Shown here piece after piece: positions 1 to 17,527 of a stretch of DNA of 23,348 nucleotides. A model generated the notes under the pieces. The model saw nothing but the letters and a program-made list of their open reading frames with translations. It was not told where the DNA came from and did not search any database. The position numbers and the translations under genes were made by a program. The DNA comes from a virus: positions 1 to 23,348 of the IMG/VR virus record IMGVR_UViG_3300030101_002855; one strand, 5' to 3'. Every line of letters starts with the position of its first letter. The first letter of the stretch is position 1.

Positions 1-56
1 GAATAAGCTGATAAGGCTCTAATGATGATATTGTATTCGCTATTTGTTATCTTCAT
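1..56 (-). CDS. 5' end of an unidentified gene running out of the window
   Basis: On the minus strand an ATG at 56-54 follows the stop codon of the SSB-like gene directly (TAAATG) and its frame stays open to the window edge, giving 18 codons that begin MKITNSEYNI. There is no clear Shine-Dalgarno sequence, so translation would have to be coupled to the upstream gene. The spacing fits the packed operon, but too little is visible to name a product. Only moderately supported. Confidence 0.4.
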   Translation of the reverse strand, partial: MKITNSEYNIIIRALSAY

Positions 57-629
57 TTAGAATGGTAAGTCAGATAGGTCTTGCTTACCATTGTTCCAAG
101 TGTAGATACCAACAGCCTTAGGTGATGTAACCTCTTCTCCTTCTCTGTTAGTCCAAGTTTCGTGCTTTACTTTTATTATTGCAGGCATACCTTCGCAGTT
201 AGAGGGAGTAAATACTGGCAATGCAAACATCTTCTTACCATCTATCTCTTTCTCCTCAGGCTTAATACCTAACGAATCACAAACTTCTTTGAACTCTCTA
301 TTGCCACCAGAGTTAGGCTCTAGGTTGCTCTCTGTAGGGTTTTTAAATCTAAACAAACCCTTAGAGCGTATAGTATTACCTACAAATAAACTACCACTAT
401 GCTCTCCAAATGTCTTATCAGAGTTCTCATTAGCAAGTTTAAATGTTAAGTTGTATATATCTGCTAGATATTTACCACGTATAACAACATCCTCTTTTAA
501 TGTAAACTCTTTTACGTGAGCGTAATAGTCTCCTTCGGGTACTATAACTTTTGGTTTATCTTCTGATGGGTCATAGTAGGACTCTCCTCCCATTACCCCA
601 CCAAGTACTGCATTTACTGAGTTACTCAT
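57..629 (-). CDS. SSB-like single-stranded DNA-binding protein
   Basis: Predicted 190-aa phage single-stranded DNA-binding protein that would coat ssDNA during replication and recombination. What is seen: a Gly-rich N terminus, a central region rich in beta-type residues, and a C terminus ending DLSDLPF, which resembles the acidic D-D-D-I-P-F tip that bacterial SSBs use to dock partner proteins. The ATG at 629 is preferred over the GTG at 635 because AAGGAA lies 7 nt before it; it overlaps the 3' end of the Rad52-like gene (ATGAGTAA). The neighbouring annealing protein and exonuclease support a recombination module. I recognise the tip and context rather than a full OB-fold alignment, so a related family of phage DNA-binding protein is possible. 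Confidence 0.6.
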   Translation of the reverse strand: MSNSVNAVLGGVMGGESYYDPSEDKPKVIVPEGDYYAHVKEFTLKEDVVIRGKYLADIYNLTFKLANENSDKTFGEHSGSLFVGNTIRSKGLFRFKNPTESNLEPNSGGNREFKEVCDSLGIKPEEKEIDGKKMFALPVFTPSNCEGMPAIIKVKHETWTNREGEEVTSPKAVGIYTWNNGKQDLSDLPF

Positions 630-1239
630 TTTCACTTTCCTTTACTTGATTTATCTTGTTTATAACTTTCGCTATATCGTTCTTTTCTATATCACCATTC
701 TCTACTGATAGTGATATCTTTTCCTTCCATTCATCACTAATGCCTTCCATCTCTTCGTATATGTAGTCTATATCTTCTTGACTTAATGATGTATCTTCTA
801 CTCTGTTTCTATATACGTCGTCTGCAATGTTCATATACATATTGAATGCCTTCTTCATAGCATCTGTATTAGCTGACTTGATATCATTACCAACGTCTAC
901 GAAACCTTCCTTATCTCTTAACTTCATTATTCTGTGAGCCGCTGTCATATCCCCTTCTCTCCATATACCACCTTCAAACCACTTGAGCCTTCCGTGTACC
1001 ATAAACGCCTCACTACCTAACATCTCTGTACTTACAATAGTCCAAGACCACCCGGGATAGTACTTATCTGCTATACTTTTCATATAGCTAATCTCCACAT
1101 AGTCCATACCCATCTTCTTCTTTACGAATGTCTTAGGTGTGTCCTCCATAGATACCTTCTCGTGAAGGTCTCTAATGATGTCAAATACTTCTTGCTCTAC
1201 AATAGCACCGTTCTCTATTACTGATAACTCACTACTCAT
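622..1239 (-). CDS. Rad52-type single-strand annealing protein
   Basis: Predicted 205-aa recombinase of the Rad52/22 type, which anneals complementary single strands in phage recombination and repair. Visible features match the family core: a YPGWSW segment near residue 45, a GRLKW strand, MTAAHRI near residue 80-86, and FVDVGNDIKSANTDAMKKAF, the conserved region ending the annealing core. The C-terminal third is acidic and helical, the usual partner-binding tail. I chose the ATG at 1239, with AGGAG 5 nt upstream inside the preceding gene, over a GTG at 1245. It overlaps both neighbours by a few bases and lies between the SSB-like gene and the exonuclease operon, the expected partners of an annealing protein. 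Confidence 0.8.
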   Translation of the reverse strand: MSSELSVIENGAIVEQEVFDIIRDLHEKVSMEDTPKTFVKKKMGMDYVEISYMKSIADKYYPGWSWTIVSTEMLGSEAFMVHGRLKWFEGGIWREGDMTAAHRIMKLRDKEGFVDVGNDIKSANTDAMKKAFNMYMNIADDVYRNRVEDTSLSQEDIDYIYEEMEGISDEWKEKISLSVENGDIEKNDIAKVINKINQVKESENE

Positions 1240-1426
1240 TCTCACTCCTCTTCTTTATCTTTAGTATCTCTGCTGTTATATAGACACAAGCATCTAGTAA
1301 TTCTTCTAATGCTTCCTTAGTCCAATCTCTACCATCAAACACATCCACCTCTTGCTTGTACTCTCTTCTACCTTTCTCTAGTCTATCCTCTATTAGAGAT
1401 ACTATCTCTTTATTATGACCACTCAT
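1232..1426 (-). CDS. short MazG-like all-alpha protein
   Basis: A 64-aa helical protein containing KGRREY, DGRDW and a KEALEELLDACVYI helix. This pattern resembles the EExxD-type helix pair of phage MazG-like nucleotide pyrophosphohydrolases, although it is shorter than a full MazG domain (about 90-100 aa). If active it would hydrolyse (d)NTPs, perhaps in nucleotide-pool control; that is inference. The ATG at 1426 has AGAGG 6 nt upstream and directly follows the stop of the preceding gene. A GTG at 1450 would extend it by 8 residues but lacks comparable support. Its 3' end overlaps the annealing-protein start. It could equally be a structural remnant of the fold. Confidence 0.6.
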   Translation of the reverse strand: MSGHNKEIVSLIEDRLEKGRREYKQEVDVFDGRDWTKEALEELLDACVYITAEILKIKKRSENE

Positions 1427-1427
1427 A

Positions 1428-1625
1428 TTAAGCCTCTGCTTTATCTTCACTTATAAGTAGAGAAATAATATCTTTGTTCTTATTAGCTAAGCTCTCTGCT
1501 TTTTTAATATTCTCTTTAAACAGGGGTAGCTCTTCTTCTTGATTAGCAATAACAAACATTAGATTCATCAATGCAATCTCTAGCTGTTCTATTCTATATT
1601 CAAGGTTATTAATATCACTTGGCAT
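1428..1625 (-). CDS. small coiled-coil protein
   Basis: A 65-aa protein of unknown function. Heptad-like spacing of Leu/Ile (LEYRIEQLEIALMNLM) and a second charged helix (ENIKKAESLANKNKD) suggest a short coiled coil or helical hairpin, so it may oligomerise. There are no Cys or obvious catalytic motifs. The start has a GAGGT ribosome site that lies inside the 3' end of the 87-aa gene, which it overlaps by 11 bp. The position inside the recombination operon suggests an accessory role, but the sequence alone does not show one. Confidence 0.6.
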   Translation of the reverse strand: MPSDINNLEYRIEQLEIALMNLMFVIANQEEELPLFKENIKKAESLANKNKDIISLLISEDKAEA

Positions 1626-1878
1626 TTTTGTACCTCACTTCTGCTATTGTTGTTTTCCTACCATATAGCCTATTCATATCATTGGATTGCATAATAGCAT
1701 CATCCTTAGATTCAAATAATCTATAGTTGTATTTAGTATTTATAACATTAGAGAAAGCACCACCTCTAATCATCCACCAAGTGCTACCATCATCCTTCTC
1801 TTCTTTGATAGCCCACCTCTTTCCACTATTACTATTGTCTTCTTTGCTCTTCTTAAATACTACTTCTAACTCTTGCAT
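1615..1878 (-). CDS. hypothetical 87-aa protein
   Basis: An unrecognised 87-aa basic/acidic mixed protein with a GKRWAIKEE strand, a Trp pair (STWWMIRGG) and a YRLFESKDDAIMQSNDMN helix. The look is of a small alpha/beta domain in which a strand is followed by an 'F-x-S-x-x-x-A' helix, common in small phage proteins of unknown role. A strong AAGGAG site lies upstream of the ATG. It starts 1 nt after the stop of the exonuclease gene, so the two are probably translationally coupled. Confidence 0.65.
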   Translation of the reverse strand: MQELEVVFKKSKEDNSNSGKRWAIKEEKDDGSTWWMIRGGAFSNVINTKYNYRLFESKDDAIMQSNDMNRLYGRKTTIAEVRYKNAK

Positions 1879-1879
1879 A

Positions 1880-2755
1880 CTATTCTCCTTTATTGTATGG
1901 ACATATGTCTCTTACTGAACAGTAAGACTTACACTTTGTACCATTCCAAGTTTCTTCATCTGTACATTTATCTGGTAACTCTTCATTATCTAGCGATAAT
2001 AGTAGAGCATCTCTTTTTACTGTGAACATATCTAGTAGGTGTTCATTGTTTATGTATGGAACCTCTATCATATATATCTTCTTGTCTAGTCCTCTCTCCC
2101 TAGATACCTGCAACCCTGCATCTCTAACTGTAGCTTGTACATACATACTATCTACCGGGTATCCGTTTTGTTCTAGTAGGTATCTATAGAAGTTTACTTG
2201 CCATCCCCAATCTTCCATATCTGAAGTATCTTTATCTATATAAAACTCCTTTACTCTTCTTGGAGTACCTGCCTTACCCCACCTACCACTCTTCTTATAT
2301 ACTTCAGTAGGATGGTATCCGTGCTTTGCTTGTATACCAAGACACTTAGCTATCTTATAACTACCAGAGAACTTGTAATCTATTAACATCTTTGTATCTT
2401 TGTCATATAAATCTACAGTACCAGTTATACCATTTGATTCTACAGTAATCTCTGAACCTAGTCTATCTACTACAGAAGAAGATTCTTCTAACTTTAAATG
2501 ATGTAATGTGCCTGCTAAAGAAAACGCATTGTCATCTGGATATATATAGTAGTCTTGTGTTCTTTGTAGGTACGATTGACAAGTGCCTTGTATTAGTTCT
2601 GTTGTTGATGGTTTTCTATCTGGGTCTCTATCTTTTGACATATGTAGTAGAGTAGGTAACGATACTTGCATTCTCTCTATATCTACGTCACCCTTCTTAA
2701 TATCTATTGTAGATACTATACCACCATCAGGATATTTAAAACCTTTCAAAGGCAT
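1880..2755 (-). CDS. PD-(D/E)XK exonuclease with Cys (Fe-S-type) cluster
   Basis: A 291-aa nuclease of the Cas4/RecB-exonuclease superfamily, predicted to resect DNA ends for the annealing protein in the same operon. Seen: GTLHHLKLEE near 82-91 (the helix equivalent to the RecB-family G-x-x-x-H-x-x-x-E motif), TGTVDLYD with Asp115, and LIDYK with Asp126/Lys128, giving the PD-(D/E)XK centre. Cys59 lies in the N-terminal part and Cys264, Cys275, Cys279 and Cys285 near the end; one N-terminal plus three C-terminal cysteines is the arrangement of the 4Fe-4S cluster in Cas4/AddB-type nucleases. The start has GAGGAG upstream, and the promoter at 2781-2820 sits just ahead, making this the first gene of the recombination operon. 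Confidence 0.8.
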   Translation of the reverse strand: MPLKGFKYPDGGIVSTIDIKKGDVDIERMQVSLPTLLHMSKDRDPDRKPSTTELIQGTCQSYLQRTQDYYIYPDDNAFSLAGTLHHLKLEESSSVVDRLGSEITVESNGITGTVDLYDKDTKMLIDYKFSGSYKIAKCLGIQAKHGYHPTEVYKKSGRWGKAGTPRRVKEFYIDKDTSDMEDWGWQVNFYRYLLEQNGYPVDSMYVQATVRDAGLQVSRERGLDKKIYMIEVPYINNEHLLDMFTVKRDALLLSLDNEELPDKCTDEETWNGTKCKSYCSVRDICPYNKGE

Positions 2756-2780
2756 ATATTTACTCCTCTCTCTCTTTGTT

Positions 2781-2820
2781 AATTTACTAATATGTGATTA
2801 CTTGAAGCAAGCATTATTTT
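2781..2820 (-). promoter_or_regulatory. promoter P1 of the recombination operon
   Basis: Read on the minus strand: upstream box AAAATAATGC (2811-2820), -35 TTGCTT (2805-2810), 18-bp spacer, -10 TAAATT (2781-2786). The start codon at 2755 lies 26 nt beyond the -10. The -35 region is also part of an imperfect inverted repeat (ATGCTTG-CTT-CAAGTAAT), which may be an operator. The same box and spacing recur at 10040-10076, 10571-10610, 10612-10653 and 14636-14675. Confidence 0.65.
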
Positions 2821-3010
2821 AATTTTCTTCTTCATTGTTTAATACTTCATCATACGATATAAACCTTTCTACGTATATACCAGTATCACTTTCTATAGCT
2901 TCTAGCTCATTCTCTACAATCTCTTCTATAGATTTCCCTTCGTTTACGTGTTCATTCCTATCCATATAAACTGCTAGTTCTACTATTATTGTTTTATAGT
3001 TATCATCCAT
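2819..3010 (-). CDS. acidic 63-aa protein, last gene of the amidoligase operon
   Basis: A small, very acidic protein without a recognised family. It has an N-terminal strand-like segment (YKTIIVELAVYM), a KSIEEIVENELEAIESD helix and a GIYVERFISYDEVLN segment, then an acidic tail. The ATG has GGAGAG upstream and overlaps the end of the 373-aa amidoligase by 8 bp, so the two are translationally coupled. The clustering makes it a candidate partner or acceptor of the amidoligase, which is inference only. Its stop touches promoter P1. Confidence 0.6.
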   Translation of the reverse strand: MDDNYKTIIVELAVYMDRNEHVNEGKSIEEIVENELEAIESDTGIYVERFISYDEVLNNEEEN

Positions 3011-4124
3011 TTCTCTCTCCTTTGAATTTAGATGTTCTTTTATTTATATAGGCTTCTAACCTACGTCCAAAAATCTTAGTATTAGGCTCTAAGTCTAACC
3101 AAGACCTAAAGTTTTCCTCACTAAACTTAGATATCTCTATACCTTTATCTATTATAATATTAAGTATTGATATCCAATTAGTTATCTTCTCTTTATTAAT
3201 AGTACCTGAGTGTAATCTAAACTCTATAGTACCGTGATAGTATCTAGAGTGTATGTTCAGACCACAGTACCTAGCATCGTTATACTTATCGTCACTAGGA
3301 TATGAACCCATAGTCTCATAGTACTCATCTATTAGTTGTTGTTCTTCTGTAACTCTATGAAGATAATTCACATTCATTTCAGAATCTCTACACCAATTAG
3401 AACTCTGTCTAGAGTTAGGCATCATACCCTTTAGTATACTCTGGTACTTCTGATATACTATAGCTACGTGTGCTATCTCTCTAGGTGTCTTGTCTATAGA
3501 GTTGAAATGTACGTGGAATCCACAAGTATGATTAACCCATCCACCGTAGTAATCCTTCCATCGCATCAAGTTATCTATGTTCTGCATTAGTAGGTCTCCA
3601 CTAGCAGGGGTAGACACTAGCTCTACACCCATACTATCTTCTTCATCCGTACTAATAGAACCATCTGAGCAGTTAGTCCAGTACATAGGTGTATCAATAG
3701 ATTCTACCTCAGGCGTAATACATTCTATCTCCAAACCTACCAATGTTCTTATAGGGTATGTGAATGTATCTGCAACTCTACTACTAGAAGGTACTGTACT
3801 TGCGACCTCTAGTACAGGAGTTTCAGGTACACAACTCTCACAATACTCTTCACCTCTGTGGTATACTGTATAGTCTCTATTGGTAGCTTCTCCACAACCT
3901 TCACAATAGCAGTATAGCTCATAGAAACAATCTTCACAGTACTCATCTCCGTGAGGAGAAACATTGTAGCCACTATCATAGCTACTATGCGTATTACAAC
4001 TAGCACAGTAGTAATAGTTTTCGTCATTGCAGTCGTCACATACAGTACCACTTGGTTGTTCTTGTACATCGTTTGTAGTCTCGCAACACTCACATACTAA
4101 TTGTTCTTCTGTATCAGGCGGCAT
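3003..4124 (-). CDS. zinc-finger amidoligase 1 (Amidoligase_2 family)
   Basis: A 373-aa predicted ATP-dependent carboxylate-amine ligase with the glutamine-synthetase-like fold of the Amidoligase_2 family. The first 100 residues carry repeated CxxC pairs (Cys11/14, 29/32, 40/43, 63/66, 74/77, 95/98) that look like tandem zinc-binding knuckles. The core follows: GLEIEC at 130, DGSI with GVELVSTP at 154-173, CGFHVHFN at 201-208, and YCGLNIHSRYY plus TIEFRLHSG at 286-307; the Glu and His residues here are the likely metal/ATP ligands. The ATG at 4124 has AGGAG 6 nt upstream. It is a clear paralogue of the 607-aa ligase and lies beside a class II amidotransferase. The amine and acid substrates are unknown. 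Confidence 0.8.
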   Translation of the reverse strand: MPPDTEEQLVCECCETTNDVQEQPSGTVCDDCNDENYYYCASCNTHSSYDSGYNVSPHGDEYCEDCFYELYCYCEGCGEATNRDYTVYHRGEEYCESCVPETPVLEVASTVPSSSRVADTFTYPIRTLVGLEIECITPEVESIDTPMYWTNCSDGSISTDEEDSMGVELVSTPASGDLLMQNIDNLMRWKDYYGGWVNHTCGFHVHFNSIDKTPREIAHVAIVYQKYQSILKGMMPNSRQSSNWCRDSEMNVNYLHRVTEEQQLIDEYYETMGSYPSDDKYNDARYCGLNIHSRYYHGTIEFRLHSGTINKEKITNWISILNIIIDKGIEISKFSEENFRSWLDLEPNTKIFGRRLEAYINKRTSKFKGERNG

Positions 4125-4125
4125 A

Positions 4126-4467
4126 CTAGACTCCTATGTTAGTAGTTATTACTCCAACTATAAAGGCGTTTATTACCTTCAACCATTTCATCTCTTTTAG
4201 TGCATCATATATCTGAGATTCTACGTCATCCTTATCTAGTTCTATGTCTATATCTATAGAACCTAGTAGGTCTATCTGTCGTATTAAAAACTCTAGATAT
4301 TCATCATATGTCTTATCTGCTAGGAAAGGATTCTTCTTAGCTCTATTATATAAAGTCTCTATAATATACTTCTTAGACTTTAGCTTTACAGCTTCGGGGA
4401 ATCCTAGTAGTATTACTTTCTTAGAATGGGACATCATCATCTCTCTCATCTTCGTTACTATATCCAT
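4126..4467 (-). CDS. hypothetical 113-aa protein between ligase and amidotransferase
   Basis: Unrecognised protein with a basic, helical N-terminal half (KLKSKKYIIETLYNRAKKN), an acidic helix (DIDIELDKDDVESQIYDALKEM) and a hydrophobic C-terminal stretch (VINAFIVGVITTNIGV) that could be a buried helix or a weak membrane segment. The frame is open from 4467, overlapping the amidotransferase by 47 bp, but ATGs at 4440, 4437 and 4434 follow a GAGAGA sequence and the shortest form (starting MSHSKK) is quite possible. It ends 1 nt before the next ATG. Its place in the middle of the module makes it a candidate adaptor or substrate; no function is visible. Confidence 0.65.
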   Translation of the reverse strand: MDIVTKMREMMMSHSKKVILLGFPEAVKLKSKKYIIETLYNRAKKNPFLADKTYDEYLEFLIRQIDLLGSIDIDIELDKDDVESQIYDALKEMKWLKVINAFIVGVITTNIGV

Positions 4468-5428
4468 ACTTGTAGTCTTCTATAACCTCGCATTGTATAC
4501 ATATAGGTCTACCATCGTTAGGACTTATCTCTTGCTCAGGTGCGTACTCAAAGCAGAAGTAGCATAACTCATCCTTCTTTGTGTCACACGTACTAACTGA
4601 GTGTAGAGACTTAGTTGCAGGACTCATACTAAACCCATTACCTCTATAGTATTGAGTACCACTATATGGTTTCCATTGATAGTTGTAGTCGTACTGACTC
4701 ATAGTCTCGAACTCTACACTATCTACATTAGGCTTACTATCGAACTTATCTGTATCATAGGTATATATATAGTCTTGCCTGACATTTCTAATAGGTAATC
4801 TAAGACCAGCTCTGGTCATAGCATCCTCCATAATCTGTCTAGTAGAAGCCCATAGTAGAACTCTAGCCTTCTTCCAATAGGCAACCACCATAGGTCTACC
4901 ACTCTCTCTGGCTAGATGTACCTTCTTGTTACTATCCTTCACCCAAGTAATAGCAAAGTCTCCATCTATATCCTCGAATGCTTTACTCATCTCCAACTTG
5001 TTGAGGGCTTGGAATAGAACTTGCGAGTCTACATCTGGGACACTCTTACCTAGTATACTAGATACTTGGTTGTAGTTGTGTATTATACCATTGTGTACAC
5101 CAGTTACACTACCTATATTAAATGGGTGAGCATTCTCTACTTTTACACTACCAGTAGTTGCTAGTCTAACGTGTCCCATAAATATAGTAGTGTCTCTATT
5201 TACTTTATCTAGTAGCGTATTCCACTCAGGATAACCTACTAGTGTTGATGAATCTACTAAGGTCTTGTAGGTATATCTATTATCCTCATTGATAATAGAG
5301 AAACCTGTACTATCAGTACCTCGGATAGATGATTCATCTGTGAGTTCAGTTACTACTCTCTTGAGTATCTCTAACTGATTATCACTTTGTCTTCCGCTAG
5401 TCTTAGCGAAACCAAAGATACCACACAT
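4421..5428 (-). CDS. class II glutamine amidotransferase with zinc ribbon and SSB-like tail
   Basis: A 335-aa protein with an N-terminal Ntn-hydrolase glutaminase domain that would release ammonia from glutamine. Cys2 becomes N-terminal after Met removal (MCGIFGF); RGTDSTG (36-42), GHVRLATTG (85-93), NAHPF (99-103), HNGIIHN (112-118) and GDFAI (156-160) match class II amidotransferases. There is no synthetase domain, so a partner must use the ammonia, or the domain acts as a gamma-glutamyl hydrolase/transferase. A C-terminal zinc ribbon (Cys289/292 and Cys310/313) is followed by an acidic tail ending DDDVPF, nearly the bacterial SSB tip. AAGGAGAT-like ribosome site before the ATG. Located between two amidoligases with which it probably works. 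Confidence 0.85.
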   Translation of the reverse strand: MCGIFGFAKTSGRQSDNQLEILKRVVTELTDESSIRGTDSTGFSIINEDNRYTYKTLVDSSTLVGYPEWNTLLDKVNRDTTIFMGHVRLATTGSVKVENAHPFNIGSVTGVHNGIIHNYNQVSSILGKSVPDVDSQVLFQALNKLEMSKAFEDIDGDFAITWVKDSNKKVHLARESGRPMVVAYWKKARVLLWASTRQIMEDAMTRAGLRLPIRNVRQDYIYTYDTDKFDSKPNVDSVEFETMSQYDYNYQWKPYSGTQYYRGNGFSMSPATKSLHSVSTCDTKKDELCYFCFEYAPEQEISPNDGRPICIQCEVIEDYKYGYSNEDERDDDVPF

Positions 5429-5446
5429 ATACTATCTCCTTTTCTT

Positions 5447-7270
5447 TTAACTGTTATTATCTATTTTACTTTCTATGTATTCAGCACCACTGATACCAGT
5501 TATATCTCTAACAATATCTAGTGCTGAAAGTTTTGTATCTATAATTTTTCTGTACAACTTAGGGTTACTATATAATGACTTAGAGCTAGACATTATCTTA
5601 TTAAGGAACATTATCCATTCTTTTATATGATTAGCCCTAATAGTACCTTCGTGATATCTAAACTCTATTGAACCTAGATAAAACCTAGCGTGTATATTAG
5701 TACCTATGTATCTAGCTTCATTGTATTTGTTGTCACTTATAACAGAATCTACCATACCATAGTAGCTAGTTATTAGATGACCAAGTGTATCTATCTTAGC
5801 TATTTCTTTAGGTGTCATAGTAATTACTCTTGCAAAAGAAGTATCTCTTCTATTATCAGGTATACTGTCATATATTACACTCTGTATTCTAGACATAATC
5901 ATAAGTAGAGACTTTATCTCTTTGAACCCCATATCTAGAGCGTTCATATGTATATGTATACCACAGCTATTATCTACAGTATTCCACTCTGTTTCGTGAG
6001 CTTCTTCTAGTTGGTCTAGTGCTATCTCAACATCTTTACCTATAACAGGTTTTCTAGTAACAAACTCCACACCTCCTTGATTTAGAGAACCATCATCAAC
6101 TACTTTGAAATATCTAGGTATCTCTCTATCTTCATCTATATACTCAGTAGCACCTTCTGTCTCTGTTATCACCTCGCTTTCTATACCTACGAATGTATCA
6201 AAAACATTCTTAGCAGAATACTTTCTAGGTAGCGGACTGTAGTTGAATGGGTTAGCTAGGTATGTAGTTAGTAGAATGTCTGCACAGTCACTACAGTATT
6301 GTCTACTAAATATATATCTATAATTAGATTCTAGATTGAACTGTCTTATAGTCTCATTTCTATCATCACTCTCTCTAAGATTATCTACATCTATCATCTC
6401 ATAACATCTACACCTACTACAAGTTCTAAGAGTACCCTCATAGCAAGTAGGGCATATATTAGTTATATCACTATTTGCGAATATAACATCTGTACTGTTT
6501 CTTTGTAGAGCAGTATCTCTTGTTATACCTATTCTATTAGATATTTCCATATCTACATGGCAACAATCACAAGGTATCTCTAGTACATCATAACAAGAAC
6601 TACAAATAGGCTTTGTTACTCCATCTGGCATAGCAACATCTGTTATACTAGACCTTGGTACTATATCTCCACAGTTACCACATACTTCATATCTACCTCT
6701 AGACATTTCTATGTCGTGCTTGTCCATATATGTAGTCATATGACCAAACGTATCTCTATTTAGAAAGAATCTATTTCTATGTAGTCCGTGTCTACTATCA
6801 GTCTTATCTACAAACTCTATTTGTCTATATGCTTCCCATATTAGAAAGCACTTAGACTCATCAGATGCGTACATCTCTAACGAAGTACATACATCATATG
6901 TATCACCCTGAGAATAGAACTGTACTTCATTTACACCCTGAGGCATATGTATTAAGTATGTATCTCTAGACTGACTCCAAGTTACAGTAAGTAGTCTCTT
7001 ATCTGCAAATAGAACATCTAGGACTCTACATATAATACGTAGACCATCACTTCTTTCTAGTAGTAGGCAAGGTATATTTTGCTTATAGGTACTTGATACA
7101 TCTATTAGTTTGAATATTCTAGTAGATATACCTTCTACAGTATCCACATCTACTCTAGCACTGTAGTCTAGCATAGCACTCTCTACATCTATATCTCTGA
7201 AGCTAGTAGCTTGATGTACTGTTCTAGCGTAGTTACTATTTACTAGATAGACTTCATTTGAATAGACCAT
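5447..7270 (-). CDS. zinc-finger amidoligase 2 (Amidoligase_2 family)
   Basis: A 607-aa paralogue of the 373-aa ligase. Residues 1-190 form an additional N-terminal region without recognised motifs. Residues 197-330 hold CxxC pairs (197/200, 223/226, 234/237, 273/276, 284/287, 326/329) consistent with zinc fingers. The ligase core runs from about 360: FVGIESEV, DDGSL with GVEFVTRKP (392-408), CGIHIHMN (436-443), YIGTNIHARFY and SIEFRYHEGTI (521-544), then HIKEWIMFLN, each matching the shorter paralogue. Predicted to form an amide or isopeptide bond using ATP; substrate unknown. It is overlapped at the start by the 48-aa gene and followed 18 nt later by the amidotransferase, indicating one operon from promoter P7. 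Confidence 0.8.
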   Translation of the reverse strand: MVYSNEVYLVNSNYARTVHQATSFRDIDVESAMLDYSARVDVDTVEGISTRIFKLIDVSSTYKQNIPCLLLERSDGLRIICRVLDVLFADKRLLTVTWSQSRDTYLIHMPQGVNEVQFYSQGDTYDVCTSLEMYASDESKCFLIWEAYRQIEFVDKTDSRHGLHRNRFFLNRDTFGHMTTYMDKHDIEMSRGRYEVCGNCGDIVPRSSITDVAMPDGVTKPICSSCYDVLEIPCDCCHVDMEISNRIGITRDTALQRNSTDVIFANSDITNICPTCYEGTLRTCSRCRCYEMIDVDNLRESDDRNETIRQFNLESNYRYIFSRQYCSDCADILLTTYLANPFNYSPLPRKYSAKNVFDTFVGIESEVITETEGATEYIDEDREIPRYFKVVDDGSLNQGGVEFVTRKPVIGKDVEIALDQLEEAHETEWNTVDNSCGIHIHMNALDMGFKEIKSLLMIMSRIQSVIYDSIPDNRRDTSFARVITMTPKEIAKIDTLGHLITSYYGMVDSVISDNKYNEARYIGTNIHARFYLGSIEFRYHEGTIRANHIKEWIMFLNKIMSSSKSLYSNPKLYRKIIDTKLSALDIVRDITGISGAEYIESKIDNNS

Positions 7271-7400
7271 CTTTCACCTCTCTTGCTATCGTTACTACAA
7301 GTTCTTTGTATACTACAAAGACTCCTAGATAATACAGAGTTAGTACACTAACGTGACTCTCTCCACAAGTACCAAGTAGGTGATGAAGTATCTCTCTCAT
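7254..7400 (-). CDS. 48-aa one-helix peptide, first gene of the amidoligase operon
   Basis: A short gene beginning MREILHHLLG with a GTCGESH segment, then a hydrophobic stretch (VSVLTLYYLGVFVVY) long enough for one membrane-spanning helix, and a charged tail. An excellent AGGAG site lies 4-5 nt before the ATG, and the gene overlaps the 607-aa amidoligase by 17 bp, so it is very probably real. It is the first cistron after promoter P7. The function is unknown; a membrane peptide or holin-like role is possible, but the neighbours suggest something linked to the ligases. Confidence 0.7.
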   Translation of the reverse strand: MREILHHLLGTCGESHVSVLTLYYLGVFVVYKELVVTIAREVKDGLFK

Positions 7401-7438
7401 ACTTTCTCCTATCTTATTGTTATCTATTAACTTACATC

Positions 7439-7462
7439 TACATCAAGTATTATCTCGATGTA
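7439..7462 (-). promoter_or_regulatory. leader hairpin of the amidoligase operon
   Basis: In the minus-strand RNA, UACAUCGAG and CUUGAUGUA form a 9-bp stem with one G-U pair and a 6-nt loop; on the plus-strand RNA the same position would be an A-C mismatch. It lies about 10 nt after the predicted start of transcription from P7 and has no U tract, so it is not a terminator. It may protect the 5' end. The right half also contains an AATACTTG box with TAACAA 18 bp downstream of TTGATG, so a second promoter could be embedded here. Confidence 0.45.
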
Positions 7463-7478
7463 CGTTTTTCCTACATAG

Positions 7479-7512
7479 AGATTACGAAATTCTACTGACA
7501 AAAGCAAGAACT
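7479..7512 (-). promoter_or_regulatory. promoter P7 of the amidoligase operon
   Basis: Minus-strand -35 TTGCTT (7502-7507), 17-bp spacer, -10 TAATCT (7479-7484), with an A-rich AAAAAGTTC stretch immediately upstream. Transcription would start near 7472, about 70 nt before the 48-aa gene. It lies immediately after the 139-aa gene without an intervening terminator, so read-through from upstream is likely as well. Confidence 0.5.
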
Positions 7513-7530
7513 TTTTTAACTTTCTATCTA

Positions 7531-7950
7531 CTAAATGGGCCAATAGTAATCCATATCTCTACGTTCTTTCCATCTATACTTAGAGTAATACTCTAAGTCC
7601 TTTCTAAGTAGGTTGCTTCTATGTGAAGCGTGTACTCTATTATCGCCTATCCAAGAAGGCATCTTTATAGAATCTGGAAGACCTACAAGTTCCATAGTAT
7701 TATTATAGTCTCTAAGTATCCATTCTTCTATCATTTTGTTTTTGTAGAGCAACAACGCTTCCTCGTAGCCTTCCCACATTAGAACGGCTGGATGTCTACG
7801 CCAACCCTTGTATTTATTGCCTTGTAGAGTTGGGTTATCTACTAATACATTGTAGATTTGCAAGGCTTCTACTCTCTGCTTTCCTAGTCTACGATAGTCT
7901 AGTACTTGTGCAGATAGAGTAAAATCTTCGTATGGTAGAAATGTCTGCAT
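7531..7950 (-). CDS. MSMEG_6728-like / pyrimidine-dimer glycosylase-related protein
   Basis: A 139-aa protein starting MQTFLPYEDF and containing SAQVLDYRRLGKQRVEA, a KGWRRHPAVLMWEGYE segment, and a SHRSNLLRKDLEYYSKY segment ending in YYWPI. These match a widespread family often annotated as pyrimidine-dimer DNA glycosylase/endonuclease V-like or MSMEG_6728 family. Whether this phage version cuts at DNA lesions is not shown; the family assignment is firmer than the activity. Length is typical. The start overlaps the stop of the upstream 62-aa gene (TAATG) and lacks a strong ribosome site, pointing to coupled translation. Confidence 0.7.
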   Translation of the reverse strand: MQTFLPYEDFTLSAQVLDYRRLGKQRVEALQIYNVLVDNPTLQGNKYKGWRRHPAVLMWEGYEEALLLYKNKMIEEWILRDYNNTMELVGLPDSIKMPSWIGDNRVHASHRSNLLRKDLEYYSKYRWKERRDMDYYWPI

Positions 7951-8138
7951 TAGAAACTACTATACCTTCTATGAGCATCCTCTCTATCTAATAGGTGCAT
8001 ACCACCTACCTTATCAGCATATCTCATAGCTTCAGTTGTACTAATAGCAATAAATCTAGTACCATCTACTAGTCTATACTTGTTATACCAAGTACCATTG
8101 AACATAACTCTATCTATTGAGTCACACTTTTTACACAT
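7950..8138 (-). CDS. hypothetical 62-aa protein with N-terminal CxxC
   Basis: Unrecognised small protein with MCKKC at the very N terminus, then a compact segment (GTWYNKYRLVDGTRFIAIST) that looks like two short beta strands, a TEAMRYADKVGG helix and a basic tail. One CxxC alone is not enough for a zinc finger unless it dimerises. AAGGGG precedes the ATG by 8 nt. It is set between overlapping small genes in one direction, so it is probably expressed with them. Confidence 0.6.
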   Translation of the reverse strand: MCKKCDSIDRVMFNGTWYNKYRLVDGTRFIAISTTEAMRYADKVGGMHLLDREDAHRRYSSF

Positions 8139-8139
8139 C

Positions 8140-8322
8140 TTACTTACCCCTTTCTACTACTTCTACTACACTACCTTCATCTAGTCCTTCTACGTCATCA
8201 CACTCTAGTAACTGTTTGTACTGTTTCTCATCTAGTAAAACCACAACTACTCTTTTCTCTGTAGGGTTATGGCTGAAGTAGTCTTTTATGTCTCTACGTA
8301 ATATGTCTATTAGCTCAAACAC
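8140..8322 (-). CDS. hypothetical 60-aa protein, GTG start
   Basis: An unrecognised 60-aa protein that starts with GTG immediately after the TAA of the 39-aa gene (TAAGTG), with AGGAG about 7 nt upstream. It has an N-terminal helix (IDILRRDIKDYF), a hydrophobic strand (KRVVVVLLD), a KQYKQLLE helix and an acidic C-terminal strand. The pattern is an alpha/beta mini-domain; no function can be named. Confidence 0.6.
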   Translation of the reverse strand: MFELIDILRRDIKDYFSHNPTEKRVVVVLLDEKQYKQLLECDDVEGLDEGSVVEVVERGK

Positions 8323-8442
8323 TTATCTACTCCTACTCTTTTTACGCTTTACTCTTTCTATTTGTGCAGGTGTTCTACCATTAGCTTTTAGTAGAGCGTT
8401 CTTCTTTCTCCTAGCTACTTTAACTAGTTTACTACGTCTCAT
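8323..8442 (-). CDS. very basic 39-aa protein
   Basis: Short gene beginning MRRSKLVKVA with a near-ideal AAGGAGGT site 6 nt before the ATG, and with its stop directly joined to the next start codon, so it is very likely translated. Some 16 of 39 residues are Lys or Arg (RRKKNALLK, ERVKRKKSRSR). It could bind nucleic acid or the ribosome; the sequence shows charge and little else. It lies after a gene whose C terminus is also very basic. Confidence 0.7.
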   Translation of the reverse strand: MRRSKLVKVARRKKNALLKANGRTPAQIERVKRKKSRSR

Positions 8443-8485
8443 TCTATTACCTCCTTATAGGTATCGGTGTTGTTATTAAATCTTT

Positions 8486-8947
8486 CTACCAAGTTTTCTC
8501 TTCTCTGAGTATTGGTCGTATAAGTCTCGGGTCTAGCTTCTTACGCTTTCTACTGTGATACTTGTTCTGTACCACCATTCTTCTTCTAGTATTTCTTGCT
8601 AATTTGATCTGCCTATCTAGTGCTTCTGCTTTCTCTACTTGATTGAGCGTAGTCGCTAGTGTTATTCTACTATATCTAGTACCAGCATCTTTATCTATTA
8701 CATTGACTATCATATTATCGCCTCTAGCCTTACTCCGCATAGCTTCTATTATATGCCATAGATTAATGAGGCTACTAGTAACATTGTCAATAGACTTTTT
8801 CTCATTACCTACATAGTCAATTAGTAGAGAGTACTTTTTATCTAGACCTTTTGAATAATAGATATTTACCGCACCTACACTTTTAAATCTGTAGTCATCA
8901 ATCGGTGTAGCACTTTCCATATCTACTACTAGGTTATTGTTATTCAT
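8486..8947 (-). CDS. hypothetical 153-aa protein with basic C terminus
   Basis: Unrecognised. The first 100 residues have alternating strand-like and helical segments (FKSVGAVNIYYSKG, KYSLLIDYVGN, SSLINLWHIIEAMRSKA, NMIVNVIDKD, RYSRITLATTLNQ), while the last 45 are strongly basic (RRRMVVQNKYHSRKRKKLD), suggesting contact with nucleic acid. A GTAGGT site precedes the ATG. It is the first gene after the terminator at 9031-9065, so a promoter should lie in 8948-9030. Confidence 0.65.
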   Translation of the reverse strand: MNNNNLVVDMESATPIDDYRFKSVGAVNIYYSKGLDKKYSLLIDYVGNEKKSIDNVTSSLINLWHIIEAMRSKARGDNMIVNVIDKDAGTRYSRITLATTLNQVEKAEALDRQIKLARNTRRRMVVQNKYHSRKRKKLDPRLIRPILREEKTW

Positions 8948-8981
8948 TTTGTACCTACTCTTTTATTATTCTATAAAATTC

Positions 8982-9006
8982 GCATCTACTATTTTTGCAT
9001 CTACTA
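8982..9006. repeat. direct repeat of GCATCTACTA in the leader of the 153-aa gene
   Basis: Two exact 10-bp copies (8982-8991 and 8997-9006), one per 15 bp, lie 35-60 bp upstream of the 153-aa start codon, next to a TATAGAAT sequence (minus strand, about 8966-8974) that could be a -10 element. Tandem spacing of this kind suggests an operator, but no clear -35 accompanies it. Confidence 0.35.
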
Positions 9007-9030
9007 GATACGAAGTCTAGAGAATAGTCT

Positions 9031-9065
9031 AAGTATAAAACGAGGGTAGAGTGTACTACCCCCGT
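9031..9065 (-). terminator. intrinsic terminator after the 89-aa gene
   Basis: Minus-strand RNA forms a 10-bp GC-rich stem (ACGGGGGUAG with CUACCCUCGU, one G-U pair, 6-nt loop) followed directly by UUUUAUA. The T-rich side exists only for minus-strand transcripts. It separates the 89-aa gene from the 153-aa operon. Confidence 0.8.
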
Positions 9066-9081
9066 TCTACTGGTCACCGTT

Positions 9082-9351
9082 CTACTTTGCTATGTTAAGA
9101 GATATTTTCGTAACAGGTTCAAAACCGTTATCTGTCATCACTTCATCTACCTTATCTTTGTTAGTAGTATGAAATTCATCTAGCTTGGTCTTTATCTCTG
9201 CGAACTCTGGGAAGTTGTCGCACATTACGTCGATTTTTCCTCTCTTGCTTGCACTAGCTACTCCTAAAGTTATAGACTCTTGGAACTTTTCTGCTGTGAT
9301 TAGTCCTAAAGCTAACATCTCTCTTAGTTGTGTATTGCTGATTTTACTCAT
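9082..9351 (-). CDS. hypothetical 89-aa helical protein
   Basis: Unrecognised. It begins MSKISNTQLREMLALGLIT, a helix-turn-helix-like start, followed by EKFQESITLGVASASKRGK and a C-terminal segment with EFAEIKTKLDEFHTTNKDKVDEVM. A small regulatory or inhibitory protein would fit, but no DNA-binding motif is certain. AAGGAG precedes the ATG. It is a single-gene unit: an intrinsic terminator follows, and the Fur-like and inverted-repeat sites lie upstream, so it may be separately regulated. Confidence 0.65.
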   Translation of the reverse strand: MSKISNTQLREMLALGLITAEKFQESITLGVASASKRGKIDVMCDNFPEFAEIKTKLDEFHTTNKDKVDEVMTDNGFEPVTKISLNIAK

Positions 9352-9403
9352 TTTACTCTCCTTTGATTAGTTTGTCTAATGATATATTATCTACTACAGG
9401 TTA

Positions 9404-9424
9404 TCTATAAGCATTTCCTATAGA
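9404..9424. promoter_or_regulatory. inverted repeat upstream of the 89-aa gene
   Basis: TCTATA and TATAGA flank a 9-nt spacer; the right half also reads TTTCCTATA, a half-site found again at 10149-10158 and inverted at 10120-10128. On the minus strand a weak promoter (TTATAG, 18 bp, TATATC) overlaps it. A regulator binding site is possible. Confidence 0.3.
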
Positions 9425-9432
9425 AACCTTAT

Positions 9433-9447
9433 TGAGATTGATTCTCA
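9433..9447. promoter_or_regulatory. Fur-like 7-1-7 box
   Basis: TGAGATT-G-ATTCTCA is one mismatch from a perfect 7-1-7 inverted repeat of the Fur type (compare TGAGAAT-N-ATTCTCA variants of the Fur consensus). It lies about 85 bp upstream of the 89-aa start codon. A single site of 15 bp could arise by chance. Confidence 0.35.
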
Positions 9448-9586
9448 TTAAGACTCCCCGTTTGTTATTATAAAAATTCATATTGGAGAATGTAGCGATT
9501 ATCTGGGAGAATAGCAAGAAAATAATTTTGGCAGCTTGAAAGATTTAATTAGAGTATTTTGCCAAAAGTCAATAGTTAATTTTAAT

Positions 9587-9606
9587 AATGTGACGTATAT
9601 CACACT
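9587..9606. promoter_or_regulatory. CRP-like site
   Basis: AATGTGA-CGTATA-TCACACT contains the full TGTGA-N6-TCACA core of CRP sites. Its centre (9596.5) is about 60 bp before the predicted transcription start of P6, close to the -61.5 position of class I CRP-activated promoters. Confidence 0.5.
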
Positions 9607-9610
9607 AAAA

Positions 9611-9650
9611 AAAATAATGCTTGCTTTTGTCGTTTATTTTAACTATGGGG
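9611..9650 (+). promoter_or_regulatory. candidate CRP-associated promoter P6
   Basis: Box AAAATAATGC (9611-9620), -35 TTGCTT (9621-9626), 17-bp spacer, -10-like TATGGG (9644-9649). The -35 part matches the phage promoter family, the -10 is weak, which is usual for activator-dependent promoters. The transcript would begin near 9656 and run through the iterons, antisense to the small genes downstream; no plus-strand gene follows for 1 kb. Confidence 0.4.
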
Positions 9651-9659
9651 TTTTTTTAG

Positions 9660-9716
9660 ACTGGTCAGTCGAATATTAGACCGATAAGTCGAAAATTCAA
9701 CCAACTAGTCGAAAAT
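9660..9716. repeat. three iterons with exact 20-bp period
   Basis: AGTCGAA occurs at 9667-9673, 9687-9693 and 9707-9713, each followed by an AT-rich ATT/AAT tail and preceded by a variable AC(C/T)-type lead. The first copy also lies in a GACTG-GT-CAGTC inverted repeat at 9659-9670. Regular two-helical-turn spacing is typical of protein-binding iterons at replication origins or operators. Confidence 0.55.
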
Positions 9717-9721
9717 CAAAC

Positions 9722-9739
9722 GGGATAGGGGGAGGGGGG
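9722..9739 (+). other. G-rich run next to the iterons
   Basis: Runs of 3, 5 and 6 G separated by ATA and A, in otherwise AT-rich DNA. It could form a two-layer G-quadruplex or slow transcription. Apart from the listed sites, I see no gene in 9352-9781; the rest of that 430-bp gap is AT-rich sequence without reading frames worth calling. Confidence 0.35.
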
Positions 9740-9781
9740 TATAACGCAAATAAGAGCTACACACAAAATTATACTACTTTT

Positions 9782-10015
9782 TTAGGATAGGAAGTCTAAA
9801 CTCCCTGCAAAATCGTTCATATCTACAGACTCTAGTTCTTCTGCATTTTGTAGTCTACTTACTATTTCTGCTATTTCACCCATTATTTTACCAGATGGGT
9901 CTACTACATCGTATACTTCCATACTTTTTGCTAAAGTTATTGCAGAATTTATATTATTTATAGATGATTCATTAGAGAAATCATTACCCAGAGCTTTATC
10001 TAACCTTCTTTTCAT
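9782..10015 (-). CDS. hypothetical 77-aa protein
   Basis: Unrecognised protein with a basic start (MKRRLDKALG), a Ser/Asn-rich segment, and two helices (SAITLAKSMEVYD; IMGEIAEIVSRLQNAEELES) followed by an acidic, hydrophobic C terminus (VDMNDFAGSLDFLS). The acidic helical tail would suit a protein-protein interaction role such as an early host-takeover protein, but this is inference. Monocistronic: promoter P2 places its -10 25 nt before the ATG. Confidence 0.6.
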   Translation of the reverse strand: MKRRLDKALGNDFSNESSINNINSAITLAKSMEVYDVVDPSGKIMGEIAEIVSRLQNAEELESVDMNDFAGSLDFLS

Positions 10016-10039
10016 TTTTTCAACCTTTTTTGTTTATTG

Positions 10040-10076
10040 AATTTACTAATGAAAGGTTACTTAAAACAAGTATTTT
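10040..10076 (-). promoter_or_regulatory. promoter P2 of the 77-aa gene
   Basis: Minus strand: AAAATAC box (10070-10076), -35 TTGTTT (10064-10069), 18-bp spacer, -10 TAAATT (10040-10045). From CTTG to the ATTAGTAAATT end the layout is the same as P1, including a CTTG-TTT-TAAG inverted repeat. Confidence 0.65.
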
Positions 10077-10119
10077 TAAAATATTTTGTAATTTTTTTTA
10101 AATAGTAGGTAAGTGTACA

Positions 10120-10158
10120 ATATAGGAATAGTTCTATTTGGCTGTATTTTTCCTATAT
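10120..10158. repeat. 9-bp inverted repeat ATATAGGAA / TTCCTATAT
   Basis: Exact 9-bp arms at 10120-10128 and 10150-10158 with a 21-nt gap, directly after the 10172 stop codon. It is AT-rich and not followed by a T tract, so a terminator is doubtful; it shares the TTCCTATA half-site with 9416-9423, which suggests a common binding protein. Confidence 0.35.
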
Positions 10159-10171
10159 ATGGACATTTTAT

Positions 10172-10372
10172 TTAAAATACGGGTATATGTATAGGTTTTC
10201 TAGTTTTGAGTGAATTTTCGCCAGTTTTCGTGTCTACAATATAATAAAGATATGCAAGTATTTCGTGTTCTGCTTCATTACCACGTACTCCTGCTACCAT
10301 AGTAACCTTTTCTACCTCATAACCTTTGTCTTCTACGCTTTGTACCTCTTCCCACTTTGTTTCTTGGAACAT
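10172..10372 (-). CDS. hypothetical protein overlapping the MNGKGDK gene
   Basis: The reading frame is open from 10480, but its first part lies out of frame over a better gene (10317-10484). A likely start is the ATG at 10372 (66 aa, beginning MFQETKWEEV). The ATG at 10300 (42 aa, MVAGVRGNEA) has a better AAAGG site and lies 17 nt after the stop of the upstream gene. The segment NEAEHEILAYLYYIVDTKTGE looks like authentic protein: a helix followed by a strand. No family recognised. The exact start is unsettled. Confidence 0.5.
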   Translation of the reverse strand: MFQETKWEEVQSVEDKGYEVEKVTMVAGVRGNEAEHEILAYLYYIVDTKTGENSLKTRKPIHIPVF

Positions 10373-10484
10373 CTTGTCTAGGTTTAGTTGCTGTAGTAGT
10401 AGGTTTACTACCAAAAATCCTTTCGTAGTTATTTTTATACCTCTTAATATCAGAGGTTCTATCCTTATCACCTTTGCCATTCAT
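10317..10484 (-). CDS. small conserved-type phage protein (MNGKGDK family)
   Basis: A 55-aa gene that begins MNGKGDKDRT and continues YERIFG, a start I recognise from many small uncharacterised phage proteins (MNGKGDK-x-R...IFG). The C-terminal half is basic (RNKVGRGTKRRRQRL). It is encoded in a different frame from the longer open frame at 10172-10480, which covers nearly all of it; the family-like N terminus makes this frame the better candidate. An A/G-rich sequence precedes the ATG, 4 nt upstream of the alternative. Function unknown. Confidence 0.7.
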   Translation of the reverse strand: MNGKGDKDRTSDIKRYKNNYERIFGSKPTTTATKPRQDVPRNKVGRGTKRRRQRL

Positions 10485-10551
10485 CTTTTCTTTCTTTTTA
10501 TATTACGTTAGTAATATATTTCTTTCTTTTACTAAGTAAACTAAGTAGCTT

Positions 10552-10566
10552 CTTGGCTTAGAGCCC
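10552..10566 (-). promoter_or_regulatory. short leader hairpin after P3
   Basis: Minus-strand RNA GGCU-CUA-AGCC begins within a few nucleotides of the start predicted for P3. Without a U tract it is not a terminator; it may protect the 5' end of the message, as suggested for the P7 leader. Confidence 0.3.
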
Positions 10567-10570
10567 GTAT

Positions 10571-10610
10571 AAGTTACTAATAAAACCATATATATATCAA
10601 GTACTTTTTT
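10571..10610 (-). promoter_or_regulatory. promoter P3 (minus arm of divergent pair)
   Basis: Minus strand: AAAAAAGTAC (10601-10610), -35 TTGATA (10595-10600), 18-bp spacer, -10 TAACTT (10571-10576). ATTAGTAA lies 16 nt after CTTG, as in P1 and P2. It would drive the MNGKGDK gene with a leader of about 80 nt. Confidence 0.6.
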
Positions 10611-10611
10611 T

Positions 10612-10653
10612 AAAAAATAATACTTGTACTATATATTATCTTTTATTTAAATT
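10612..10653 (+). promoter_or_regulatory. promoter P4 (plus arm, packaging operon)
   Basis: Plus strand: AAAAAATAATAC (10612-10623), -35 TTGTAC (10624-10629), 18-bp spacer, -10 TAAATT (10648-10653). It lies back to back with P3. The first start codon (10666) is only about 6 nt after the expected transcription start, so the first gene would be almost leaderless or the actual -10 is slightly upstream. Confidence 0.6.
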
Positions 10654-10665
10654 AATGTTGAAGAT

Positions 10666-10902
10666 ATGACTAAAGTATTAAACATAGCTAGAAGTTATTG
10701 CTCTAACTGGGATGCAGGTAACTGTATAGGGTGTATATTTAGTAGAAAGAATGATAAACTATCTATTACACTAGATTCTAAGTTAAGTGGTAAGTCTTGT
10801 AGAGTAGAGAGAGGTTGTGATTTTTTTGATACTGTGGTTATACCGGGAATAACTGATGATAGAATAAGACAGTCTGCTAGATTGTCTGGGAGGAATAAAT
10901 GA
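10666..10902 (+). CDS. Cys-rich 78-aa protein, first gene of the packaging operon
   Basis: Small protein with six Cys residues: YCSNWDAGNCIGCIF, then SCRVERGCDFFDTVVIPG. Similar Cys-rich proteins (YC-x-N-x(5)-C-x-G...GC-x-F-F...VIPG) occur at this position in other phages, but none is characterised to my knowledge. The Cys pattern suggests zinc or another metal. It directly follows promoter P4, and its TGA overlaps the ATG of the next small gene (ATGA). Given the position ahead of the packaging genes it may be regulatory or an early structural accessory; this cannot be decided here. Confidence 0.7.
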   Translation: MTKVLNIARSYCSNWDAGNCIGCIFSRKNDKLSITLDSKLSGKSCRVERGCDFFDTVVIPGITDDRIRQSARLSGRNK

Positions 10903-11009
10903 GAACAGCAGTAGCAGTTATAACAATGATATCTGGAAAACTTTGGTTTTTTCTAGAAGCCATAGCTATAGTATTATTAATTAAGACAATAAAAGGTTTT
11001 GTTAGATGA
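10899..11009 (+). CDS. 36-aa single-helix membrane peptide
   Basis: A very short gene joined to both neighbours by ATGA overlaps, with GGGAGG before its ATG, which supports translation. The product begins MRTAVAVITM and has a hydrophobic stretch (LWFFLEAIAIVLLI) that should form one membrane helix, ending in a basic tail (KTIKGFVR), so the C terminus probably faces the cytoplasm. Small holin-like or spanin-like functions are possible. No family recognised. Confidence 0.65.
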   Translation: MRTAVAVITMISGKLWFFLEAIAIVLLIKTIKGFVR

Positions 11010-12512: not shown

Positions 12513-12724
12513 TGAATCTATACGAAATAGTGATGGAGGTTCTAGAGCACGCTGACGACAACGATATGTCAATAGGTGATGATATGTCAAAGCAAAGCAT
12601 TGCTACTGAAATCTATGAACTGTTTTACGAAAGTCAAGTTTATTCTAGTTTTATTGATAGTGGCTATATGAGTGACATAAGTGACTATTGGCAATTTAGA
12701 CAAGACCTAGATGAAGACGAATAA
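12512..12724 (+). CDS. hypothetical acidic 70-aa protein
   Basis: Acidic, unrecognised protein between the small terminase and the cyclotransferase-like gene, overlapping both (TGATG with the first; 14 bp with the second). It has an N-terminal helix (NLYEIVMEVLEHA), a SKQSIATEIYELFYESQ helix and an aromatic, acidic C terminus. Overlapping starts indicate coupled translation; there is no sign of function. Confidence 0.6.
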   Translation: MNLYEIVMEVLEHADDNDMSIGDDMSKQSIATEIYELFYESQVYSSFIDSGYMSDISDYWQFRQDLDEDE

Positions 12725-13082
12725 GTTAGCAGTATACGGAACACTTAGGAATGGTGAGCGAGATACTTGGAAAGTAGATGGCTACTCATTAGTGTTTCCC
12801 GGACATAGAGATTATCCAGCCGCATTTATTGACGAAAATCAAAATGAGATGATTGTAGAGGTTATTGATGTTGATAATATGGATTTAGCTGGTTACGACA
12901 GGTATGAAGGTGTATCTTATGGATTATATGAAAGAAGAATGGTTAAAGCATATAACGATGATGATGAAGTAGATGCTTGGATGTATACGATAGGCCCAGC
13001 TTTGTTGCAAAATAATACCGTGTTTGAACTTGTACCTAAGAAAGATTGGATGTCAGAAGATTGTCTAAAGCTCCGAACATAA
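12711..13082 (+). CDS. AIG2 / gamma-glutamylcyclotransferase-like protein
   Basis: A 123-aa protein with the family start LAVYGTLRNGERD (the YGTLR nucleotide/glutamyl-binding loop) and YDRYEGVSYGLYERRMV, in which the Glu is in the position expected for the catalytic acid. Members cyclise gamma-glutamyl groups to 5-oxoproline, freeing the amine, so they can reverse gamma-glutamyl amides. This would complement the amidoligases on the other strand. It overlaps the large terminase start by 37 bp and shares its operon. Activity is inferred from family motifs only. Confidence 0.75.
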   Translation: MKTNKLAVYGTLRNGERDTWKVDGYSLVFPGHRDYPAAFIDENQNEMIVEVIDVDNMDLAGYDRYEGVSYGLYERRMVKAYNDDDEVDAWMYTIGPALLQNNTVFELVPKKDWMSEDCLKLRT

Positions 13083-14638: not shown

Positions 14639-14675
14639 ATAATACTTGCATTGTATGTATATAATTTATTATATT
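14636..14675 (+). promoter_or_regulatory. promoter P5 of the virion operon
   Basis: AAATAATAC box (14637-14645), -35 TTGCAT (14646-14651), 18-bp spacer, -10 TATATT (14670-14675). The proposed AUU start at 14701 is 26 nt past the -10, the same distance as at P1 and P2. Confidence 0.6.
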
Positions 14676-14700
14676 ACACATCAAAAAGGAAGGTGCGACC

Positions 14701-16727: not shown

Positions 16728-16760
16728 GTGATGCTAAATTAAAAGAAATCGGAGAATATA

Positions 16761-17513: not shown

Positions 17514-17527
17514 ACAAGGAGTCCTAA

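Follow-up and report, generated by a model that had tools for sequence, protein, structure and literature searches.

A compact phage gene block with two finger-bearing amidoligases, a class II glutaminase and a small conserved partner protein

Results

We analysed the first 23,348 bases, hereafter the window, of the 63,940-base IMG/VR virus record IMGVR_UViG_3300030101_002855, which according to profile matches to a P22-like portal (176.7 bits) and an SU10-type capsid (99.7 bits) comes from a tailed phage. Positions 3003-7400 hold, on the minus strand, a compact module encoding, in the order of transcription, a 48-amino-acid (aa) membrane-like open reading frame (ORF), ligase A, a glutaminase (GATase), a small protein T, ligase B and, running past this interval to 2819, a small protein S. 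The 48-aa ORF overlaps A by 17 bases, 18 bases separate A from the GATase, T, counted from its first ATG, shares 47 bases with the GATase, a single base lies between T and B, and B and S overlap by 8 bases. A sequence-only reading of this DNA had placed the module at the same, correct coordinates and had described it as an overlapping operon with its own promoter. The genes do overlap or abut, but the private promoter was unsupported, since 14 sigma-70-like matches compared with 24.7 expected in shuffled sequences and the 7400-7950 interval had none on the minus strand, and also because the module lies inside a conserved early block.

Amidoligase A (607 aa; 5447..7270, minus strand) is composed of an N-terminal domain (residues 1-190), three treble-clef-like CxxC..CxxC fingers (residues 197-329; about 6284-6682) and a ligase core of the GS/GCS fold (residues 356-607; about 5450-6205, minus strand). 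Its paralogue B (373 aa; 3003..4124, minus strand) carries three CxxC..CxxC fingers (residues 11-98; about 3831-4094) ahead of its core (residues 123-373; about 3006-3758). The CxxC pairs are found at residues 197/223/234/273/284/326 of A and 11/29/40/63/74/95 of B. Both proteins matched PF12224, with 68.6 bits for A and 87.9 bits for B at a gathering cut-off of 22 bits, so that the two finger-preceded Amidoligase_2 cores of the sequence-only reading were confirmed. When the AlphaFold model of A (predicted local distance difference test, pLDDT, 89.4) was compared to the PDB, it matched YbdK (1r8g; E 2e-4), glutamine synthetases and bifunctional glutathione synthetase, which supports, by way of the A model, the assignment of A and B to the Amidoligase_2 family with a GS/GCS carboxylate-amine-ligase fold.

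In an alignment of 61 A and B proteins, the finger cysteines and the acidic, His and Arg residues of the core were invariant or nearly so. The catalytic set (Glu, Glu, Asp, Ser, Glu, Cys-Gly, His, His, Arg, Arg-Tyr, Asn, Glu, Arg) was the same throughout (100% identity) in the 45 A-type and the 60 B-type proteins compared; the loss of active-site residues that would have spoken against an amidoligase assignment was thus not seen in these 105 proteins or in the A model with its YbdK and glutamine synthetase matches. Beside the active-site arginine, A and B differ systematically (Tyr479 in A, Trp244 in B). Because of the invariant catalytic set and this difference, A and B look like active yet non-identical ligases, and ATP-dependent formation of amide bonds is the natural reading predicted from their family and residues. 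In a tree, A and B formed separate clades, with a few deep A branches unresolved; the ligases are therefore ancient paralogues from an old duplication that was retained.

The glutaminase (335 aa; 4421..5428, minus strand) belongs to class II (Ntn, GlmS-type) and matched GATase_6 with 64.4 bits (cut-off 27 bits) and phrog_4736 at 4e-37; its nearest family was GlmS (62 bits), with EgtC much weaker (24 bits). Cys2, Arg88, Asn113, Gly114 and Asp134 were kept in 121-125 of 125 homologues and, judged by these Ntn catalytic residues, which are complete, the enzyme is intact. It had been described as a stand-alone domain but is not bare, as it ends in a CxxC..CxxC finger (residues 289-313; about 4490-4564, minus strand). 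Near relatives have a single CxxC..CxxC unit in this tail, distant relatives two or three.

Between the glutaminase and B lies T (113 aa; 4126..4467, minus strand), whose conserved part begins at an internal ATG near 4434-4437. T starts with a basic half (median +9 over about 39 aa), followed by an acidic middle and a conserved C-terminal tail. It has 46 distinct homologues, and its ratio of nonsynonymous to synonymous substitution (dN/dS; here and below against close relatives) was 0.13-0.38. T had no Pfam or NCBIfam match, no convincing PHROG match and no match among 50,697 phage records. The tail is hydrophobic in most homologues; a universal membrane anchor was rejected because one subclade lacks this hydrophobicity (mean hydropathy -0.18). 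Two further candidate identities were dismissed: a homologue of the small ORF upstream of the RIO-1-like amidoligase (profile comparison probability 0.1%) and a protein with a Pup-like C-terminal Glu/Gln, which is absent from the T alignment. By sequence, T is a previously undescribed small protein and an obligate partner at a fixed position.

In the A model, the fingers consist of hairpins followed by a helix that bears the second CxxC, from which we infer a treble-clef, LIM-like type; Foldseek matches of this model to FYVE and PZP structures were weak and non-significant (E about 0.7-1.3). The fingers are strongly acidic, with a median charge of -18 per 100 aa (n=120) and -21 in 100 aa for those of B. 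The same record holds a second copy of the module (see below). The N-terminus and fingers of A were 0.29-0.31 identical between the copies and its core 0.61, the fingers and core of B 0.37 and 0.61, and the tail and core of the GATase 0.44 and 0.80. The fingers and the N-terminus of A thus diverge far faster than the cores, which fits docking parts and suggests that they may contact a partner that itself changes, perhaps one from the host. Our literature search found no zinc-finger amidoligases, and the B fingers matched none of the 50,697 phage records; neither they nor T had a match in a cultured phage. A second, distant phage group (L033-L050) lacks T and has fingered ligases, most of them with 7-9 CxxC, ahead of a short GATase that is itself usually fingered, which suggests that the fusion to fingers may have arisen more than once. 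We also counted how often ligase and GATase are fingered together (76/9/5/26 loci, with the ligase alone fingered in 9 and the GATase alone in 5); as proof of a ligase-GATase interaction this co-occurrence was discarded, being non-significant with too few independent changes on the GATase tree.

Scans of IMG/VR returned related loci for A (4), B (40), the glutaminase (80) and T (66), counts in which the same contig may recur. After de-duplication, 63 T-bearing loci remained: 46 with the order A-GATase-T-B, 14 with GATase-T-B without A, two that stop within the module and one without a detected B. The order GATase-T-B was found in 60 of the 61 distinct T-bearing loci whose contig extends far enough, so that the gene-order survey pointed the opposite way from a chance arrangement confined to this phage. 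Pairwise dN/dS was 0.07-0.38 across the genes of the block and the GGACT gene described below and, since the order also recurs in dozens of related contigs, these reading frames are real genes under selection. All T-bearing relatives are uncultured. A known anti-phage defence system was rejected, as none of the six proteins matched a defence-system model in PADLOC.

S (63 aa; 2819..3010, minus strand) is a small acidic protein downstream of B in the nearer relatives; 28 homologues were found, of which 20 distinct sequences were aligned (dN/dS 0.16-0.29). The hydrophobic 48-aa ORF (7254..7400, minus strand) heads the block, carries the motif HHLLGxCGExHxS and was present in 34/56 T-bearing loci, with a best 19-residue hydropathy of mostly 1.0-2.1. 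Outside the block, adjoining the terminase genes, lies a GGACT/AIG2-like gamma-glutamyl(amine) cyclotransferase (123 aa; 12711..13082, plus strand), which matched PF06094 with 49 bits (cut-off 22.8 bits), is intact at the profile level and had a dN/dS of 0.07-0.08. In 43/43 loci within reach, it is encoded about 6-10 kb away on the strand opposite to the module.

The terminase and GGACT genes are thus on the plus strand, and an SSAP-like gene, an exonuclease gene, the ligase module and a gene for a pyrimidine dimer DNA glycosylase (7531-7950; PF03013, 77.6 bits) on the minus strand. The module sits in a conserved early block with the glycosylase gene, kept in 28/56 loci, upstream on one side and the exonuclease/SSAP genes on the other; since its neighbours are conserved on both sides, this is one virus group that has retained the module. 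The ORF at 11006-11767 (plus strand), starting with DKHFPYEDKKAIK, has a GNHEDW motif and looks metallophosphoesterase-like by eye, with no Pfam match at E 0.01. The record contains two collinear, divergent copies of one genome plan of about 43 kb, offset by about 43.65 kb, at record positions of about 1-19197 and 43820-63940, with a nucleotide identity of 67-94%. The second copy is 99.98% identical to the separate contig L011 across 12 kb, and the first is nearest to another strain; because the nearest relatives of the copies differ, the assembly has probably joined two strains into a chimera. The finding is left untouched by this probable chimera, as both copies, like many other contigs, carry an intact module.

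Discussion

The sequence-only reading had proposed a gamma-glutamyl or amide-forming pathway that modifies a protein, a peptide or a DNA base. Such a pathway is the natural reading, because the fold and residues of Amidoligase_2, a GlmS-type glutaminase and a GGACT occur in the same phage; of the three candidate substrates, DNA is the least likely. We give about an even chance to a more specific proposal, a docked, glutamine-fed amide-ligase machine with a macromolecular target. Its components would be made early in infection. The glutaminase would split glutamine into ammonia and glutamate, and A and B would each use ATP to activate a carboxylate, probably the gamma-carboxyl group of free glutamate or of a glutamyl residue. 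The activated group would then be linked to an amine, which would be ammonia in one step and perhaps a different amine in a second. The fingers on all three enzymes together with T would hold the enzymes together or deliver them to a large acceptor. This acceptor would most likely be a peptide moiety, for instance in a precursor of peptidoglycan or in a protein of the host, and the GGACT would clear stray or surplus gamma-glutamyl-amines, yielding pyroglutamate and the free amine.

This proposal starts from what was observed: gene content and order, folds, conservation of the active sites, paralogy and selection. From these we infer ammonia transfer, complex formation, two distinct ligation steps and a macromolecular target. 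The shared finger-like domains, the acidity of the fingers, the basic half of T and the fixed gene order suggest a complex. A macromolecular target is preferred to a free metabolite because the fingers and the N-terminal domain of A diverge fast compared to the slow cores, while the strong acidity of the fingers and the lack of a detected C5-methyltransferase favour a peptide-type target over DNA.

Several points weigh against the proposed machine. The reaction, substrate and complex are predictions from genes and models. A is missing from 14 T-bearing loci, so that the system does not depend on having two ligases. Fingers are not always paired on ligase and GATase (the 9 and 5 exceptions above), with no tree-based link between them, and a ligase-finger profile matched 12/199 GATases at E 0.01, with no decoys, leaving the GATase of the window unmatched. 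The model of T is weak (pLDDT 71), and identification of T by fold failed, with no PDB match at E <3. The acidity of the fingers argues against nucleic-acid binding but does not name a partner.

The leading specific form of the docked machine, tentative as it is, would be a cell-wall cassette in which the ligases and the glutaminase amidate or cross-modify peptidoglycan stem peptides, blocking superinfecting phages. This role has been assigned, by prediction only, to related cassettes of RIO-1, phiEco32, LUZ24, tf, PA11 and CW02 (PMC5498523; PMC3890496), and a precedent exists in MurT/GatD, a glutaminase and a ligase in cell-wall amidation (PMC3267633). The membrane-like ORF at the head of the block and the T tail, hydrophobic in most homologues, would suit this location, but the tail is not hydrophobic in one subclade, and the module showed no domain specific to peptidoglycan. 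GatD, moreover, is a class I and not a class II glutaminase, which counts against this explanation. Rather doubtful, too, is a modification of proteins of the host or the phage (for example RNA polymerase, the ribosome or a defence protein), to which glutamate or some other amine would be conjugated, with the GGACT clearing gamma-glutamyl-lysine remnants. GGACT enzymes split gamma-glutamylamines, e.g. gamma-glutamyl-lysine, and the usual ligands of LIM/FYVE/PHD-like fingers are proteins or lipids; both facts favour modification of proteins, as do the strongly acidic fingers and the weak FYVE and PZP matches of A, but these matches are non-significant and neither a target nor a motif was found.

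A small-molecule pathway, in which free gamma-glutamyl-amines or glutamine are made and recycled (for nitrogen metabolism or as a protecting group) by auxiliary metabolic genes, seems unlikely to us. YbdK, the closest structure in the PDB, is a carboxylate-amine ligase that acts on small molecules, and amidoligase and GGACT-like genes are adjacent in Clostridia. Enzymes of free metabolites would, however, not be expected to carry docking fingers on three of their number, to have non-catalytic parts that evolve fast or to need an obligate partner, T, that is no enzyme. DNA hypermodification, with the ligases amidating a carboxylated base of phage DNA as CmoY does after CmoX, is very improbable. 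Amide ligation on phage DNA does exist, and some related ligases have a glutaminase domain (PMC12783734); the neighbours of the module are DNA repair and recombination genes. On the other hand, CmoY is an asparagine-synthetase-type AMP-forming ligase of another fold, the fingers are highly acidic, and a C5-methyltransferase (PF00145, a CmoX homologue) was absent from the 63.9-kb record with positive controls, in searches that covered the families named here. It is also improbable, if a little less so, that T, instead of being an adaptor, serves a new conjugation system as its dedicated protein carrier or substrate. In such a system the fingers of A, B and the glutaminase would bind T, amines or amino acids would be ligated to it in turn and the product would be passed to a target, by analogy with LysW- or Pup-like systems with GS-fold ligases.

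Relation to known systems

Amidoligase cassettes are widespread in phages, including well-studied phages of Pseudomonas, Escherichia and Vibrio, and their substrate is only predicted in the literature consulted. The compact variant described here, for which we favour the docked amide-ligase machine, offers few parts, visible docking modules, a fixed partner and natural controls in the loci without ligase A; with few parts and natural controls, the long-open question of the target becomes directly testable by reconstitution. Possible cultured models are found in many Clostridia (loci L147-L212), where a finger-less amidoligase is directly followed by a GGCT-like gene.

The related cassettes published for RIO-1, phiEco32, LUZ24, tf, PA11, CW02 and other phages contain GGCT, GATase, COOH-NH2 ligase, Amidoligase_2 and ATP-grasp genes and are called peptidoglycan-modifying or superinfection-blocking by prediction only (PMC5498523; PMC3890496). 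These cassettes, like T, the finger of the GATase and the GGACT gene of this phage, were missing from the sequence-only reading. As in the RIO-1/phiEco32/LUZ24 type, GGACT (GGCT), class II glutaminase and Amidoligase_2 genes coexist in this phage, with an early-region location in common, and the RIO-1 GATase likewise has a C-terminal CxxC..CxxC finger. In contrast to that type, our phage has two Amidoligase_2 paralogues with three fingers each, the added T, unrelated to the small ORF upstream of their amidoligase, and a GGACT gene apart from the module on the other strand. ATP-grasp genes are present in that type, whereas no RimK-type ATP-grasp (PF08443) was detected in the 63.9-kb record with positive controls, this being the only ATP-grasp family tried; a search for COOH-NH2 ligase (PF14395) gave no match, neither in the record nor in the controls. 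Similar gene sets occur in OM43 phages and phage ZRK32. Arthrobacter phage Kovu shares the trio of GGCT, amidoligase and GATase without ATP-grasp, but its single ligase and its GATase are finger-less and T is lacking. Bacterial loci share the core family and its pairings (amidoligase with GGCT in Clostridia, GATase with amidoligase in Aquificota), but the best 80 cellular matches were finger-less except for one Elusimicrobia locus (L198, 12 CxxC), and none had T. YbdK/GCS2 and glutamine synthetase have the fold of the catalytic core in common with A and B, but at 12-14% identity and without the fingers and the N-terminal domain. The block is thus a variant of a known, predicted phage cassette, new in its duplicated fingered ligases, in T and in the undetected RimK-type ATP-grasp.

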